Below, in pieces: positions 2,797 through 15,811 of a stretch of 25,172 nucleotides of DNA; position 1 is the stretch's first letter; every line of letters starts with the position of its first letter. The notes beneath the pieces are model-generated. The model saw nothing but the letters and a program-made list of their open reading frames with translations, was not told where the DNA came from and did no database searches. Made by a program: the position numbers and the translations under genes. The DNA comes from a virus: positions 1 to 25,172 of IMG/VR virus record IMGVR_UViG_3300027822_000035; one strand, 5' to 3'.

Positions 2797-3327
2797 TTAT
2801 TCCCCCACAGCCTTTCTCCTCTCTCCACCCATCCTACGTTCATCGCCAGTATAAGGTTTGGTGCCTTGGCGGCGATCATCCGCATTATTGCGACGATCCG
2901 TACTGTGTCTCGCCTTTTGTTCCGCCTGTGCCTGTATGTAGCCTCCTATCCGGTAAAACTCTTTTATCGATGCTCTTTCCAAGGCCACCAGGGCCTGGTT
3001 GATCTCTATGGCAAACTCTTTGTCATCGAAATTCTTAATTATAGACTCATGTTTCATATCCAAGGCGTTGCTATTTAACGAATTTTTTGTGTTGAGGAAG
3101 GGCTCGCCTACCCCTGATATCAACCAATCAATGCTGACTTGAGGGTAATGAGATTTTAGCCCGCGATAAAATTTTGTTCCAGGTTCCTGATCTCTTTTTA
3201 GATAATTGTATATCTGGTTTTCACTAATACCGCATTGCTTTGCGAATATCTTTTTATCAACTCCGGACATGCTAATTATGTAGCCAAGCCGGCTTCTAAA
3301 ATCACTAAATCTTGTTTCGTTTGTCAT
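2797..3327 (-). CDS. CI-like phage repressor (HTH)
   Basis: The 176-residue protein has an N-terminal lambda-repressor-type helix-turn-helix at about residues 12-50 (KIFAKQCGISENQIYNYLKR), followed by a segment containing SIDWLISGVGEPF that is typical of CI-type repressors of temperate phages. The C-terminal 35 residues are extremely Arg/Asp-rich, with repeated DRR, DERR and GERR motifs, and no peptidase-like LexA domain is visible. It is leftward and divergent from the early operon, as the Mu c repressor is. Its start lies next to an array of CGACTAACGAA half-sites (3332-3424), with an imperfect copy overlapping the start codon (3316-3325), so it probably binds these and controls itself and the early promoter. 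No Shine-Dalgarno is evident. Confidence 0.8.
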   Translation of the reverse strand: MTNETRFSDFRSRLGYIISMSGVDKKIFAKQCGISENQIYNYLKRDQEPGTKFYRGLKSHYPQVSIDWLISGVGEPFLNTKNSLNSNALDMKHESIIKNFDDKEFAIEINQALVALERASIKEFYRIGGYIQAQAEQKARHSTDRRNNADDRRQGTKPYTGDERRMGGERRKAVGE

Positions 3328-5118: not shown

Positions 5119-5724
5119 ATGGAAATCGCTCAAATGACAGACGTGGAATGTCAGGACCTGGAACACCTGGAAAAGGTTGTTGAAGACAATATGGTTTCGT
5201 GGATGAAGGTAGGGTTTGCCTTGAAGGAGATCCGGGACCGGAAATTGTACCGGACAAAGTATTCAACCTTCGAGCAATACACGAAAGACCGTTTCGATTG
5301 CGCCCGCTCGACAGCGTATCAGTACCTGTCCGGCATTTCGGTAATCGAAAATGTCCGCAATGCGGACAAAAGTTTTCCCGTGCTGCCTGAAAAAGAGGCG
5401 TTGGTTCGTCCGTTGACCCGGTTGGAGCCGAATGAACAACCCAGGGCATGGGGGATGGCTATCAAGCGAGCCCTTGACACCGGTTCCGAAGGTATTCTCA
5501 CCAAACACGTTGTATGGGCCGTCGAGTGTTTGCGCGGTGAACCAATCGAGAAGGTCAAGACTCGTATCTCAACGAGTACGGGAGATCTTCCAGATGAATT
5601 CCGTGACGCATTTCGATCGATCACAGAAAGTATTTTTGCAGCCAGAACAAACCGATTCAAGGGTATTGACCGAAAAAAGATGGTTGAAATCCTGGATGGT
5701 CTGAAGCGGTTACTTGAGGGGTGA
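5119..5724 (+). CDS. HTH early protein upstream of transposase
   Basis: A 201-residue protein starting at ATG 5119 behind a GGTGGAG ribosome site; the longer frame upstream would overlap the previous ORF and lacks a better site. Residues 30-75 (SWMKVGFALKEIRDRKLYRT; then a RFDCARSTAYQYLSG helix-turn-helix) resemble the DUF3102/ParB-like DNA-binding proteins that often accompany phage and plasmid replication genes. The C-terminus has further helices but no catalytic motif. It ends 2 nt before the transposase ATG. A role in regulating or aiding transposition is inferred from position. Confidence 0.6.
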   Translation: MEIAQMTDVECQDLEHLEKVVEDNMVSWMKVGFALKEIRDRKLYRTKYSTFEQYTKDRFDCARSTAYQYLSGISVIENVRNADKSFPVLPEKEALVRPLTRLEPNEQPRAWGMAIKRALDTGSEGILTKHVVWAVECLRGEPIEKVKTRISTSTGDLPDEFRDAFRSITESIFAARTNRFKGIDRKKMVEILDGLKRLLEG

Positions 5725-5726
5725 TC

Positions 5727-7868
5727 ATGAAGACTGGGGAGACACTTTCCATACAAGAAATCAACCGGGTTTCCGGCGTCAGTGTGCGGGTGTTACAGCT
5801 TCGCGCATCAAAGGAAAAATGGTCATGTGTCGATCTGCCAGGCAGGGGCCGTGGCGGAAGAATCCGGTGTTACAATATAGACCATCTGCCGGAAGACATC
5901 CGTCTCCTTTATAATAAAGAGGTGGTTTGTAACCTACCTACCGAATCTAACACCCATCTCCTTGCAACATCACCGGTAAAAACACCGGTCATGGCAATGA
6001 GCGTGCCCCAAAAGATTAAATTCGCCGCCAAGACCGATTTATTGCTGCATTACACCAGCGCCGTGGCCGGTGCCGGCCACGGCAAAAAGACAACGGCGCG
6101 GGACAACTTCATGCTGGCCTACAACAACGGCCTGATCTACCGGGAAATTTTTGCCATCGTCGGTGAGGTTTCCTGGAAGACCATCGAAGGTTGGAAACGC
6201 ACCGTGCGTGCCGGCGGGAACCTGGCCGACCGGCGCGGGAAAGCGCGCAAGGGGAAACGGATTATTACCGCCCAACAGGCGACCATTCTGATGCAGGTGG
6301 CCCTACATCCCAATGCATTGCTGATATCGGAGGCAACCCGTGAGGCAAAGCGCCGGATGGCCGCCGCAGGAATCGATAACGGCCACAACCCGTCGACGTA
6401 CCGGCGCTGGCTGACTGATTTCAAGGAACACAATTATGATATCTGGTGCTTTCAGCGCGGCGGGAAGAAACGCTGGAATGATGAGTGCTGCCTTTCCATC
6501 GACCGCAACCCGGAGTTGATCAATGTCGGCGACGTGCTGGTGGCTGACGGCCACACACTGAATTTCAATACGCTTAACCCGTGGACCGGCAAGCCTCAGC
6601 GCATGACGCTGATCACATTTTTTGACATGCGGTCGAACATGCCGTGCGGATGGGAGATCATGCCAACGGAGAACACGGCTGCGATATCATCTGCGCTTCG
6701 CCGGGCGATTCTGTTTCTTGGTAAAATTCCACGCGTCGTCTACCTGGATAACGGGCGGGCGTTCAAGGGCAACTATTTCACCGGCACCGATCTCGAGCAG
6801 GCAGGCCTGTCAGGCATTTACGAGCAACTTGGCATCCAGACCGTATTCGCATGGGCCTATCATGGCCAGTCAAAAACAGTGGAACGTTTTTTTGGGACAC
6901 TTGCGGAGCTTGAGAGAAAGGCACCGACCTACACCGGAACCAGCATTGTGAAAAAACCGCCGCGCATGAACCGCGGAGAGAAATTGCACCGCAAGGTCTT
7001 CGACAAAGTCGTCGGCGGAGAATACCTGACCTTGGAAATGACCCATCAGGTGATCGCCGGCTGGTTCGATGAGTATGCCCATCGGCCTCAGGAACGCAGT
7101 AAATATCTGAAGGGATGGGCTCCTATGGATCTGTTTTCGCCAGGGCGCGGCCAGGGGATTGATCCTGTAGAACTGACCGCGTTGATGTGGGCCAGGAAAG
7201 GCGCGGTTATTCGTGCCAGCCGGATATCCCACATGGGCCGCTATTACTATCACAATAATTTATACGGCCGGCATCACCAGGTGGAGGTGCGTTACGACCT
7301 GCAAGACCCAAGCTATATCGCCGTTTACGAAAATGGCGAGTTCGTCTGTATCGCTACGGAACAAGACCAGATCCACCCGATGGCCACTCATTTGGGCACG
7401 GATAAGGATCGCGCCAAATTGTCCGAATACTGTGAAATAAAGGGGCATCAATTTAAGATAGCCAGTGGGTTGTCTCAGCAATTATTGGAAAAAGAGGTGC
7501 TCCCGGCCCATCAACAGCAATTGGCAAGGGACGGTGTCTCTCCGACAGGACCCTCCCCTACCCCGTTAGAACCGGAACCCAAGCAGCTCACAGCCGCCGA
7601 TGAGAAACGGATTGAAGCGGAAGCGGCCGAGTATTTTGAGCAAAATGAGAAGGAAGAGACCAACGTATTTACCGAACTGGAAGGGATGGAGGATCTGGAT
7701 AAATACGAGCAGCTCCTCAAGCTGGATGCCCGCCAGGTGATGATTCCGAAACAGTGGCTGGCCTTCATGCGTTATTTCGAGCAGACGCCGCAATATAAGA
7801 GCCTGGAAAAGAGCGATTATTGGGAAGAGATCCGGGCTGCAGAAGCTGCGATGGCAAGGGCAATATAA
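5727..7868 (+). CDS. MuA-type DDE transposase
   Basis: The 713-residue protein has an N-terminal Mu-type winged-helix DNA-binding domain (about 5-65, SIQEINRVSGVSVRVLQLRA), a helical end-binding region to about residue 240, an integrase-like core and a C-terminal Mu transposase domain. The catalytic triad is D274 (in VADGHTL), D341 (YLDNGRAF) and E386 (KTVERFFG), closely matching D269/D336/E392 of MuA. It should bind phage ends, nick the 3' ends and join them to target DNA during integration and replicative transposition. ATG 5727 follows GAGGGG at the right distance; GTG 5721 is an alternative. The last 120 residues are acidic and may contact the MuB-like ATPase encoded 30 bp downstream and the ClpX unfoldase, as in Mu. 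Confidence 0.95.
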   Translation: MKTGETLSIQEINRVSGVSVRVLQLRASKEKWSCVDLPGRGRGGRIRCYNIDHLPEDIRLLYNKEVVCNLPTESNTHLLATSPVKTPVMAMSVPQKIKFAAKTDLLLHYTSAVAGAGHGKKTTARDNFMLAYNNGLIYREIFAIVGEVSWKTIEGWKRTVRAGGNLADRRGKARKGKRIITAQQATILMQVALHPNALLISEATREAKRRMAAAGIDNGHNPSTYRRWLTDFKEHNYDIWCFQRGGKKRWNDECCLSIDRNPELINVGDVLVADGHTLNFNTLNPWTGKPQRMTLITFFDMRSNMPCGWEIMPTENTAAISSALRRAILFLGKIPRVVYLDNGRAFKGNYFTGTDLEQAGLSGIYEQLGIQTVFAWAYHGQSKTVERFFGTLAELERKAPTYTGTSIVKKPPRMNRGEKLHRKVFDKVVGGEYLTLEMTHQVIAGWFDEYAHRPQERSKYLKGWAPMDLFSPGRGQGIDPVELTALMWARKGAVIRASRISHMGRYYYHNNLYGRHHQVEVRYDLQDPSYIAVYENGEFVCIATEQDQIHPMATHLGTDKDRAKLSEYCEIKGHQFKIASGLSQQLLEKEVLPAHQQQLARDGVSPTGPSPTPLEPEPKQLTAADEKRIEAEAAEYFEQNEKEETNVFTELEGMEDLDKYEQLLKLDARQVMIPKQWLAFMRYFEQTPQYKSLEKSDYWEEIRAAEAAMARAI

Positions 7869-7898
7869 GTTTTCCTACTGGAAAAAAAAGGAGAGATG

Positions 7899-8645
7899 AT
7901 GGCACTTACAATGTCAAAGACGGAATTTATTCAAACGCAGAACGTGCGGAACGTTGTACTGATGATGGACGATATCCGAATGGACATCGACGAGGGTCGG
8001 TTCGGCGTGGTGTGCGGCGGCGCCGGTCTCGGCAAGTCCAGGACCATCAAGTGGTTTCACTCCAACAACACCGACACGGTTTATATTGAATCAACCGCTA
8101 TTTGGTATTCCAGCGAGCTTGAGTTCCTACGGGATTTTTGCCGGGAACTTGGGATCGAGGATGTTGCCAAGCGCAAGGGCCGTTGTTTCCGTGACATCGT
8201 CGACCATCTTTTTGAAAATCCGGACACCATCATTCTCATCGACGAGGTGGACCGGTTGAAAAACATGCATCTGGAGTTGATGAGAGACATCACCCGAATG
8301 ACCCTTTGTCCCATCGTATTGATCGGGGAACGGAAACTCCTTCCTTTTATGCAGCGAAACGAGCGGGTTTGGACGCGGACATTCGAGCCGGTGATGTTCA
8401 AGCCGATGAAACAGAGCGACGTGATCATCTACGCCAAGGACGCCGTTGGTGTGCAGATCAGCGCCGATATCGCCAACATCCTCCATAAGACCAGTACCAA
8501 GAATACATCAGACGGCAACTTCCGCCTGGTAAAACGCGCATTGCAATACTGCGTTCAGTACGCCAATGCCAAAAACACCGATGAAGTCACGCCCGACATC
8601 GCCACCGCTTCCATCAAATCAGCCATCAGATGGGCCAAGAATTAG
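7899..8645 (+). CDS. MuB-type AAA+ ATPase, transposition target activator
   Basis: The 248-residue protein has a Walker A motif (GGAGLGKS, residues 40-47), Walker B (IILIDEVD, D115/E116) and a sensor-like IVLIGER segment, the layout of MuB and related transposition ATPases (PF13401-like). It would bind DNA in an ATP-dependent way, choose target DNA and stimulate the transposase. MuB itself is about 310 residues with an N-terminal HTH; this protein lacks that HTH and resembles the shorter MuB versions of many Mu-like phages. Two adjacent ATGs are possible (7896, 7899); GGAG spacing favours 7899. Confidence 0.93.
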   Translation: MALTMSKTEFIQTQNVRNVVLMMDDIRMDIDEGRFGVVCGGAGLGKSRTIKWFHSNNTDTVYIESTAIWYSSELEFLRDFCRELGIEDVAKRKGRCFRDIVDHLFENPDTIILIDEVDRLKNMHLELMRDITRMTLCPIVLIGERKLLPFMQRNERVWTRTFEPVMFKPMKQSDVIIYAKDAVGVQISADIANILHKTSTKNTSDGNFRLVKRALQYCVQYANAKNTDEVTPDIATASIKSAIRWAKN

Positions 8646-10803: not shown

Positions 10804-11202
10804 ATGAGTATCAATCGGATGACCCCGGAGGATGTTGAAAAGGCAAGGACGCGCCTGTTGCTTGTGATGACACGGCATGCCGGACCCAACAAGAAAATCG
10901 GCATGGGTGAATTATACGAACAGGTGTTCGATCGCCAGTATCATCATCGCATCAACGACACCAGGCAGCTGCGCTATATCATCACCAATCTGCGTAATGA
11001 CGGGGTCCCCATCGTCAGCAACTCATCCGCTACCAATGGCGGGTACTGGCTTGCCGCCAGTGCAAGTGAGATCACGCTGTATTGCGCGAAGGGCCAACGA
11101 CAGGCCATCGGAATGTTGGCCAGAATAGCTAAAATGAAAGATGTTTCCCTGCCGGAGTATCTCGGTCAGATGCGTCTGGAACTGGAGTCAAACGATGCGT
11201 AA
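10804..11202 (+). CDS. Winged-helix-like early protein
   Basis: A 132-residue protein with a good AAGGAG site upstream of ATG 10804. Residues 30-80 (IGMGELYEQVFDRQYHHRIN, then TRQLRYIITNLRNDGVPIVS and a NGGYWLA wing) form a likely winged helix of the type found in phage proteins that choose between two DNA-binding states. The C-terminal half is helical. It overlaps the Gam-like gene by 8 nt. A nucleic-acid-binding role is inferred. Confidence 0.6.
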   Translation: MSINRMTPEDVEKARTRLLLVMTRHAGPNKKIGMGELYEQVFDRQYHHRINDTRQLRYIITNLRNDGVPIVSNSSATNGGYWLAASASEITLYCAKGQRQAIGMLARIAKMKDVSLPEYLGQMRLELESNDA

Positions 11203-11656
11203 GCCACAAAACGAACACCTTATGCGTGCCGAACAACTGCTTACCGATATTTCCTCTGCGATTGTTGCCAGGGATGATGCCGTAAAGAAGGCGAACGCTG
11301 AAATCGATGTCGTTAAAAGCCGCTACGCCGACGGTATCGACCGTGAGAAAAAGAAGATCATCGCCTTCGAAAAGCAGCTGGACCGGTTGGTGCGATCAAG
11401 CCGATCTGAAATTCTCGGCGACGGGGACCGGGCCGATCTGCCCGGCGGTTCGGTTATGCTCAAGGAAGAGCGGCGGGTCAAGCGGATCAAGGGGATGCTG
11501 GATCGGTTGAAGGCCGCCGGCATGCAGTCCGCCATTAAAACGGCCAAGGAATACGTGAACTGGGACCGCGTAGAGATGTTCAATGACGGGATGCTTGAAC
11601 GTCTTGGCACCGAACGGGTGTCGAAGACGATTTTCTCTTATGAGTTGAAGGGGTAG
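11195..11656 (+). CDS. gam: Gam-like host-nuclease inhibitor
   Basis: The 153-residue protein has the Mu Gam layout: a long N-terminal coiled coil (about 5-75, with VVKSRYADGIDREKKKIIAF), a beta-hairpin marked by LPGGSVMLKEERRVK, and a C-terminal helix bearing YVNWDRVEMFNDGMLERLG. Mu Gam is a Ku homologue that binds duplex ends and protects linear DNA from RecBCD-type exonucleases. Start ATG 11195 has GGAG 8 nt upstream. It is the last gene of the early block, before a structured 288-bp gap. Confidence 0.85.
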   Translation: MRKPQNEHLMRAEQLLTDISSAIVARDDAVKKANAEIDVVKSRYADGIDREKKKIIAFEKQLDRLVRSSRSEILGDGDRADLPGGSVMLKEERRVKRIKGMLDRLKAAGMQSAIKTAKEYVNWDRVEMFNDGMLERLGTERVSKTIFSYELKG

Positions 11657-11710: not shown

Positions 11711-11760
11711 TTGACAAACCCATATGTTTTTGCGCACACTGGGTGCGTCAAAATTATGGT
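11711..11760 (+). promoter_or_regulatory. Promoter-like unit upstream of the C4-like RNA
   Basis: A perfect TTGACA (11711-11716) is followed by TTTTTGCGC (11727-11735), GTCAAA (11747-11752) and AAATTATGG (11751-11759). The same four words in the same order recur at 11874-11934. It probably drives the structured RNA and antirepressor locus, but no convincing -10 is visible (best CACACT at 18 bp spacing). Confidence 0.35.
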
Positions 11761-11763
11761 GCG

Positions 11764-11810
11764 CCCCCGTCCCTCGATGCAATCCGGCATCGAAAGGGGG
11801 TTTGTTGTTT
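11764..11810 (+). terminator. Terminator-like hairpin after the Gam gene
   Basis: TCGATGC (11774-11780) and GCATCGA (11787-11793) form a 7-bp stem with a 6-nt loop, extendable by CCC and GGG across a two-base bulge, followed by the T-rich TTTGTTGTTT. It could end the early transcript ahead of the antirepressor control region. Confidence 0.45.
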
Positions 11811-11823
11811 TTGGGCATTTTTG

Positions 11824-11902
11824 CGCGCCCGAGATGCCACGTATCGTGAGGTACGTGGGCGCTTCCATAAGCGTTGACACATCTCGGGCGCGTTCTTTTT
11901 TT
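11824..11902 (+). ncRNA. C4-type antisense RNA candidate
   Basis: CGCGCCCGAGATG (11824-11836) pairs perfectly with CATCTCGGGCGCG (11880-11892). Inside are two hairpins: CCACGTA/TACGTGG (11837-11843 with 11852-11858, 8-nt loop) and CGCTT/AAGCG (11860-11864 with 11869-11873, 4-nt loop), a three-way junction ending in TTCTTTTTTT. Bases 11860-11870 are antiparallel-complementary to 11929-11939 over 11 pairs (two G-U), covering the GGAGG of the next ORF; GGTAC at 11850-11854 pairs with GTACC at 11939-11943. Together they cover the ribosome-binding site up to the ATG at 11945. This is how C4 RNA of P1/P7 blocks icd-ant translation, and an antirepressor-like gene follows here as well. Not checked against the Rfam model. 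Confidence 0.7.
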
Positions 11903-11944
11903 GCGCCTCCGCTGTCAAACCGTCTAAATTATGGAGGTGTACCA

Positions 11945-12181
11945 ATGGCAGACCTGCCGACTTCTCAAGCACCAACCGACCTTCTCGAGACCAACATTTG
12001 CCGCATGTGGATGCTGCGTGATTTTTTAAACGGGATCGATCACGAACAGTTCCAATTTAGCGAGTCCGGAAACTGCGGGCTCATTCAACTCATGGATCAA
12101 ACCATCGAAGAGATGGAGCTGGCGATGGAACAGGTTTGTGAACTTTGGAGGAACAACAAAAAGGAGGTGGCTAATGGGTGA
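11945..12181 (+). CDS. Small ORF in icd-like position, coupled to antirepressor
   Basis: A 78-residue acidic helical protein (contains LIQLMDQTIEEMELAMEQVC) with GGAGG 7 nt before ATG 11945; the longer open frame from 11657 is only the structured gap read through. Its stop overlaps the start of the Bro-N gene by 8 nt. In P1, icd sits in the same place: its translation is blocked by C4 RNA and is needed for ant expression. Sequence similarity to P1 Icd is not claimed; the analogy rests on the arrangement and on the complementarity of the ribosome site to the upstream RNA. Confidence 0.65.
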   Translation: MADLPTSQAPTDLLETNICRMWMLRDFLNGIDHEQFQFSESGNCGLIQLMDQTIEEMELAMEQVCELWRNNKKEVANG

Positions 12182-14776: not shown

Positions 14777-15015
14777 TGAAGAATAAATTGATCGATCTGA
14801 ACAACCATTTGTTTGCTCAGATGGAGCGGCTGTCGGACGAAGAGTTGAACGGGGACGCGCTTGCCGAAGAGATCCAGCGATCCAAGGCCGTCGGGTCGCT
14901 GGCCGGCCAGATAATCGGCAATGCCCGATTGGCCCTGGATTCCCAGGTGGCCATCAACAACAATCTCCTCAAAAAACCACCTTTGATGCTTGGAGCTGAA
15001 GGTTATGAAGATTAG
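14776..15015 (+). CDS. Conserved-type small phage protein
   Basis: A 79-residue protein of the type found in many tailed phages: KLIDLNNHLFAQMERLSDEE near the N-terminus, then KAVGSLAGQIIGNARLALDS. Its function is not known in the family. AAAGGA precedes the ATG. It overlaps the HNH gene by 11 nt. Confidence 0.6.
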   Translation: MKNKLIDLNNHLFAQMERLSDEELNGDALAEEIQRSKAVGSLAGQIIGNARLALDSQVAINNNLLKKPPLMLGAEGYED

Positions 15016-15811
15016 ATACACTGCCGAACAATTGGAATTCTTACGGATCGCGTATCGATATCTGACCGTTCGTGACCTGACGACGGCCTTTAATGCTGTG
15101 TTCGCTGCCGATAAAACCGATGTGCAAATCCGGTCGACACTCAAAAGAAATGGCATCAAGTCCGGGCACGTGCCAAAGCTTTTCGCCGAATTCCGGTTGC
15201 TGCGGGTTTACACATCAGACCAGGCGCAATTTCTTCTGGACAACTACGCAGGCCGGAGCGTTGCGGAATTAACGGCTATTTTCAATGATAATTTCAGGGC
15301 CGACATGACCGAGCAACAGATCAAATCGTTTGTGCACAATCGGGGGATCACATGTGGCCGGTCAGGACGTTTTGAAAAAGGGCATCAGCCGTGGAATGCC
15401 GGCACAAAGGGCAAGGGGCTGACGGGGGCGAATGCCCGGAGTTTTAGGAAGGGGTCCATCCCCGCCAACCGAAAGCCGCTCGGATCTGAGCGTATCGATT
15501 CCAAGAATGGCTATATCTACATCAAAGTGGCCGAGCCGGACCCACATACCGGATTCCCGACCCGGTATAAACAGAAACACGTGTATGTATGGGAACAGGC
15601 CCACGGGCCGGTGCCTGACGAGATGGTCGTTTCATTTCTGGATGGCGACAAGCGCAACATCGAGCCAGAGAATTTAATGCTGATTTCGCGAGCTGAGCTG
15701 CTCCGGCTGAACCAACGTGGGTATAAAAATGCGCCGGCCGATCTAAAACCGAGCGTTTTGGCGCTGGCAAAACTCGAAGTGAAAACATTTTCGAAGCAGA
15801 AGGATGTTTAG
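15005..15811 (+). CDS. HNH endonuclease (phage type)
   Basis: The 268-residue protein has two N-terminal repeats resembling small HTH units (YTAEQLEFLRIAYRYLTVRD and YTSDQAQFLLDNYAGRSVAE, each followed by a FN..F segment), then an HNH_3-type nuclease core at about 155-235 with KHVYVWEQAHGPVP and LDGDKRNIEPENLMLISR, which supply the His and Asn of the motif. Such proteins occur as free-standing homing-type or packaging-related endonucleases in phages. Start ATG 15005 overlaps the previous gene. It could be self-mobile or assist packaging; the distance from the terminase makes the former at least as likely. Confidence 0.75.
   Translation: MKIRYTAEQLEFLRIAYRYLTVRDLTTAFNAVFAADKTDVQIRSTLKRNGIKSGHVPKLFAEFRLLRVYTSDQAQFLLDNYAGRSVAELTAIFNDNFRADMTEQQIKSFVHNRGITCGRSGRFEKGHQPWNAGTKGKGLTGANARSFRKGSIPANRKPLGSERIDSKNGYIYIKVAEPDPHTGFPTRYKQKHVYVWEQAHGPVPDEMVVSFLDGDKRNIEPENLMLISRAELLRLNQRGYKNAPADLKPSVLALAKLEVKTFSKQKDV

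Follow-up and report, generated by a model that had tools for sequence, protein, structure and literature searches.

The present analysis identified a structured RNA element that appears to work like the C4 antisense RNAs of immI-type operons, yet belongs, judged by the sequence models tested here, to a separate RNA family. The element lies in a 25,172-nucleotide stretch of viral DNA (IMG/VR record IMGVR_UViG_3300027822_000035; hereafter the window), and we consider it likely that it is an antisense RNA, encoded in the leader of the operon that it targets, that blocks the translation of a 78-aa ORF and of the Bro-N antirepressor gene behind it. At the level of sequence, the central observation of the initial annotation was confirmed; the mechanism it proposed gained support but needed correction, and the element is now assigned to a different family.

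The perfect 13-bp stem enclosing two hairpins that had been described at the outset (11824-11836/11880-11892) is present and gains a fourteenth pair from a G-U at 11823/11893 (Table 1). The fold of the element as a whole has a z-score of -7.2, which none of 200 shuffles equalled. Scanned with a descriptor, 1.4 Mb of strand-bases, half of them shuffled, gave as the three best hits the C4 RNA of P1, a canonical C4 from a different Mu-like contig and the window element, the background of this ranking consisting of loci and shuffles only.

Table 1. Features of the candidate antisense element, its leader and targets, and the surrounding prophage genes (window coordinates)
Feature	Position	Strand	Basis or remarks
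TTGACA, putative -35 of leader promoter	11711-11716	+	sequence; most homologues have it or a close variant 5' of a1
Leader hairpin holding a1-b1	11741-11766	+	-13.3 kcal/mol, z -2.5
a1 target, GUCAA	11747-11751	+	complementary to linker a'
b1 target, UUAUGG	11754-11759	+	complementary to hairpin-2 loop; b'/b1 co-vary in 12 loci
Terminator-like hairpin (CCCCC..GGGGG) with T-rich tail	11763-11812	+	z -3.25; between b1 and element
C4-like element, candidate antisense RNA	11823-11893	+	71 nt; fold, family covariance, homologues
Closing stem	11823-11836/11880-11893	+	14 bp
Hairpin 1	11837-11858	+	9 bp, GUGA loop
Hairpin 2	11859-11874	+	carries CUUCCAUAA
b' antisense segment (hairpin 2)	11859-11870	+	12 pairs with 11929-11940
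a' antisense segment, UUGACA (linker)	11874-11879	+	6 pairs with 11913-11918
Single-stranded linker	11875-11879	+	3' of hairpin 2, inside closing stem
T-run, likely RNA 3' end	11894-11902	+	sequence; T-runs also 3' of element in homologues
a2 target, UGUCAA	11913-11918	+	6 Watson-Crick pairs with UUGACA
b2 target over Shine-Dalgarno sequence	11929-11940	+	pairs with b'; co-varying
78-aa ORF in icd position	11945-12181	+	no family match
Bro-N antirepressor gene, 220 aa	12174-12836	+	Pfam Bro-N 4.7e-9; PHROG anti-repressor Ant 7.8e-9
Repressor-like HTH protein gene, divergent	2797-3327	-	PHROG transcriptional regulator/repressor 4e-8 to 1e-6
MuA-type transposase	5721-7868	+	Pfam Mu-transpos_C 2.7e-11; PHROG transposase 1.5e-83
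MuB-type ATPase	7896-8645	+	PHROG DNA transposition protein 6e-35
Mu Gam-like protein	11141-11656	+	Pfam Phage_Mu_Gam 3.6e-14

Two segments of the element can pair with the region ahead of the 78-aa ORF. The proposed pairing between hairpin 2 and the ribosome-binding site (RBS) over 11 positions (11860-11870/11929-11939, two G-U pairs included) is exact and extends to 12 pairs; besides, the linker is complementary to a2. Jointly, a2+b2 score 15.6, a value that none of 1500 shuffles and no mismatched locus attained. Upstream of the element, a1+b1 score 11, which 111 of 1500 shuffles reach, so that this pair is weak on its own. When the same scoring was applied to P1 and 31 Rfam-C4 loci, it recovered a-b pairs on both sides nearly everywhere, which validates the pairing test. 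A second contact in the initial annotation, from the loop of hairpin 1 to the RBS (11850-11854/11939-11943; seven pairs with G-U), can be found in the sequence but is unsupported by 12 homologues, where hairpin-1/RBS pairing is at the level of mismatched loci (3006/10,000 permutations); it is therefore most likely due to chance. The segment that acts as a' is the linker and not the loop of hairpin 1, with a' and a2 placed as in P1.

The element has relatives. In a search of 390 genomes of the order, R1, a covariance model built only from the window element, scored the window at 105 bits and detected homologues in seven further Desulfobacterota genomes at 72-34 bits (L070 at 72, L071 at 54, L072 at 52 and L073 at 42, with L074, L075/L077 and L076 weaker at 38-34). 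Pattern scans combined with model checks added the viral contigs L078 (69 bits), L080 (70), L141 (71) and L139 (55), while the family model R3 retrieved L127, L128, L130 and L131 from a set of 395 genomes of the phylum. The family occurs at a dozen or so loci besides the window. The L070 element recurs as L089; the genome is that of Desulfobacteraceae bacterium UBA5616, and the window genome falls into the same order. A further match, L129 (52.7 bits), has none of the layout and looks like a GC-rich false hit; most of 39 pattern matches in genome_contigs failed the covariance model, and a search in another class, which included no positive control, returned 0 matches out of 210. In one 3336-base contig (L125, G090:C137) there are two copies of the element in inverted orientation, which may stem from misassembly. 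Our literature search did not retrieve a description of this RNA, and the family apparently is undescribed, although a prior description is possible since subscription papers mostly fell outside the scope of the search.

The covariance in homologues to which the initial annotation had pointed as a check was found, both in the fold and in the b' contacts. In an alignment of seven members, which was fitted to the window structure and is to that extent biased towards it, 94.6% of cells are paired and 10 pairs have changed on both sides; none of 500 shuffles reached the covariation score, and sliding the partners abolished the signal. Across 12 members, with loop and linker boundaries set by hand ahead of scoring, b'/b1, b'/b2, a1+b1 and a2+b2 each paired better with a member's own flanks than with those of other loci (0/10,000 permutations each, which ignore the relatedness of the members). 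The loops differ greatly between members, which makes shared inheritance an unlikely cause of the match: L070 combines CUCCUGU with ACAGGAG, L078 CCUAGAA with TTCTAGG, L080 CUCUUGG with CCAAGAG, L139 CUUGUGA with TCACAAG, L071 CUCUGUGG with CCACAGAG and L128 CUCCUCGGAA with TTCCGAGGGG. The linker contact alone was not significant in these 12 members (1688 and 725/10,000 permutations), because a' hardly varies among family members; a' and a1 do change in step in L127 (AGACA/TGTCT), L128 (UAGCA/TGCTA) and L130. Pairing to b2 is poor in L073, L127 and L130, and pairing to b1 is absent in L072.

As to family membership, the designation as a C4-type antisense RNA holds for the layout over a small ORF and an antirepressor gene but not for Rfam C4. 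With the Rfam 15 models, the scan that had been proposed initially gave no match of the window to C4 (RF01695), neither at gathering nor at E<=10, and none to c4-a1b1 (RF03163) even at E<=10, while the P1 control scored 68.8 and 51 bits, respectively; the other family members do not match Rfam C4 at gathering. Conversely, R1 and R3 match neither P1 nor any of the 31 canonical loci, which were collected across the order and in a single Mu-like contig. A third model, R2 (built from A3), does not match the window, but this is weak evidence because R2 kept only 16 pairs and is a poor model; MAFFT misaligned the window with the C4s. Conserved sequences differ as well: the window family has a GNRA-type hairpin 1 of 9 bp and a five-nucleotide linker of the UGACA type (UUGACAC), whereas canonical C4s read CCGGU...NNNNCAACC, and their CCGG-type hairpin-2 stem and NNNNCAA linker are absent from the window.

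These differences bear on the question of whether the element might be a true, highly diverged member of the P1/P7 C4 family for which the Rfam model is too narrow, a reading that concerns ancestry and leaves the mechanism as it is. We regard it as a serious contender, if somewhat short of even. The order of the parts, the three-stem fold, linker a', loop b' and the upstream hairpin are all alike, and there are canonical C4s both within the same genus and in one Mu-like contig (L022/L038); the failure of the models to match in either direction and the divergent conserved sequences speak against it. In that contig, a canonical Rfam C4 (55 bits; L022 11702-11773, L038) has an antirepressor-looking gene directly 3' without an icd-like ORF, and transposable phages hence use canonical C4 too.

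The genes around the element bear out the operon order expected from C4-icd-ant, that is, a small ORF and a Bro-N gene overlapping it by 8 nt with matches in both Pfam and PHROG. Likewise, the claim of a transposable phage with its own repressor was supported by MuA, MuB, GemA and Gam homologues in the window and by a divergent repressor-like gene. Homologues of the repressor-like protein are encoded near MuA in related contigs, and this protein likely is the object of the antirepressor; a second immunity circuit may be layered on the Mu-type one, as had been suggested. The host of the prophage is a Desulfobacterota-type bacterium. Queries with the Bro-N protein, the 78-aa ORF and DNA retrieved no close homologue of the window locus, and its nearest Mu-like relatives (L011 and L012, MuA ~70%) have neither an Rfam C4 nor a Bro-N match. 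Besides, the middle region of the prophage encodes an HNH endonuclease (14990-15811, PHROG 1e-75).

In other members, the element precedes antirepressors of different types: a small ORF followed by Bro-N in L141, as in the window, an 87-aa ORF followed by ORF6N in L080, and pRha directly in L078, which makes three types in all. Mu-type genes accompany it in the window, L080, L120/L136 (the L070 locus) and L141, with weaker MuA/GemA matches in L078. The first genes of L120, L071 and L127 have no recognised family match, and the surroundings of the remaining members are of other kinds or unrecognised. The window Bro-N protein shares a C-terminal HTH region (30% over 67 aa) with the ORF6N protein of L080 (3909-4109), a sequence likeness behind different N-terminal domains that points to domain swapping. 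Two type-II hammerhead ribozymes (L078 4687-4751 and 10207-10272; Rfam 62.5 and 74.1 bits) are found in the Mu-like L078 contig. Long structured leaders upstream of other Bro-N genes of the order (L030 and L032; e.g. CCTGAACCTGACA in L030 versus GTCAGGTTC upstream) are perhaps further antisense classes. Finally, in L124 (G282), L126 (G161) and L131 (G678) the element lies upstream of genes that by sequence encode tyrosine integrases, directly 5' of the integrase in L126 and with a small overlapping ORF between in L131. Pairing here is mainly with the upstream a1-b1 (9 pairs in L126), suggestive of an integrase-linked subgroup with mainly upstream contacts.

From the fold and its covariation, the b' contacts that co-vary with two targets and the gene order, all seen in sequence comparison, we infer transcription, RNA release, repression, coupling, immunity and the action of Bro-N on the repressor as follows. 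A transcript would start near 11711 and pass the a1-b1 leader hairpin and the terminator-like hairpin, after which the element would be freed as a stable RNA by termination at the T-run or by processing. Its b' loop and a' linker would then bind b2 and a2 on read-through mRNA and hide the Shine-Dalgarno sequence of the 78-aa ORF. Translation of this ORF would be blocked and that of Bro-N would stop with it, because the two are presumed to be coupled through their overlap. With the antirepressor off, the prophage repressor would stay undisturbed for as long as the RNA is present. Pairing of the element with a1-b1 in the leader may favour the terminator-like hairpin, which would amount to autoregulation; alternatively, the leader RNA may serve as a sponge. 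The leader promoter is uncertain: a strict sigma-70 scan of the window found none, and the -10 hexamer is poor.

It is conceivable, though unlikely in our estimation, that the RNA acts mainly by premature transcription termination, as does the P4 CI RNA, with a1-b1 as the main target, or that the leader RNA is a trans-activator as is IsrK in Gifsy-1; both have precedents (PMC4825925). In the window, L070, L141 and L080, the 3' arm of the a1-b1 hairpin shares bases with the C-run of the terminator-like hairpin. This suggests a step of attenuation like that described for P4 CI RNA and discussed for IsrK. The terminator-like hairpin has similar counterparts in L070, L071, L072 and L141, and a hairpin likewise separates b1 from C4 in P1 and the canonical loci. 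However, in most members b2 and the Shine-Dalgarno region overlap, the predicted pairing of b2 in the window is stronger than that of b1 (-14.5 versus -9.6 kcal/mol), and the window fold did not switch to the full terminator when a1-b1 were held unpaired in silico. Either way, termination or trans-activation and the translational block that we favour are not mutually exclusive. An intrinsic terminator or attenuator combined with sequestration of the RBS in cis, the loop-RBS complementarity being incidental, would fit the stem followed by TTCTTTTTTT and the predicted ability of the window RBS to pair with 11902-11911 without any antisense RNA, but is very improbable given that b' co-varies with b1 and b2 both, that the 11902-11911/RBS pairing is not apparent downstream of the homologues' elements and that a terminator needs no two conserved internal hairpins.

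The lysogeny of Mu-like phages is usually described via protein repressors, and here a distinct RNA family that no Rfam 15 model matches sits in their early region. This suggests that C4-style antirepressor control is a recurrent design rather than a single lineage. With more doubt than confidence, we propose that a scaffold unrelated by descent to C4, yet of the same double-contact design, has been reused with reprogrammed loops on antirepressors of three kinds, both in transposable and in other prophages, and also beside tyrosine integrase genes in a subgroup whose contacts are confined to the upstream side. Since the loops co-vary with their targets, immunity differences between such phages should be predictable from sequence and are testable.

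Among known systems, the P4 CI immunity RNA resembles the window element, going by its published description (PMC4825925), in being a processed RNA flanked on either side by sites complementary to it (seqA, seqC), but it acts on the transcription termination of replication genes. The isrK/orf45/anrP locus of Gifsy-1 shares a terminator-ended leader RNA, read-through and a small ORF translationally coupled to the antirepressor (PMC4825925); it differs in that short IsrK is reported to be an activator that refolds its target, and the isrK Rfam model has no match in the window. The closest parallel is C4 itself, listed in Proteobacteria and phages (Weinberg 2010, PMC2864571), whose processing and the roles of its a' and b' are summarised in PMC5320573. 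The C4 precursor is cut by RNase P at a 5' end with GG(W) (PMC5320573), which is absent in the window, where the stem starts with GCGCGCC. On the other hand, the window shares with C4 of P1/P7 the long closing stem, which encloses two hairpins and, 3' of them, an unpaired linker; in both, the hairpin-2 loop (b') can pair with the RBS of the ORF that follows, and the linker (a') with a2 upstream of that RBS; in P1, too, the sequence and the Rfam alignment place b' in the hairpin-2 loop and a' in the single-stranded linker behind. Upstream a1/b1 copies as in c4-a1b1 are weak in the window alone but strong in the family (0/10,000), and the small ORF overlapping the antirepressor gene is that of an immI-type operon. 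The annotated order of P1 immI, a1, b1, C4, a2, b2, icd and ant1, is thus reproduced in the window.
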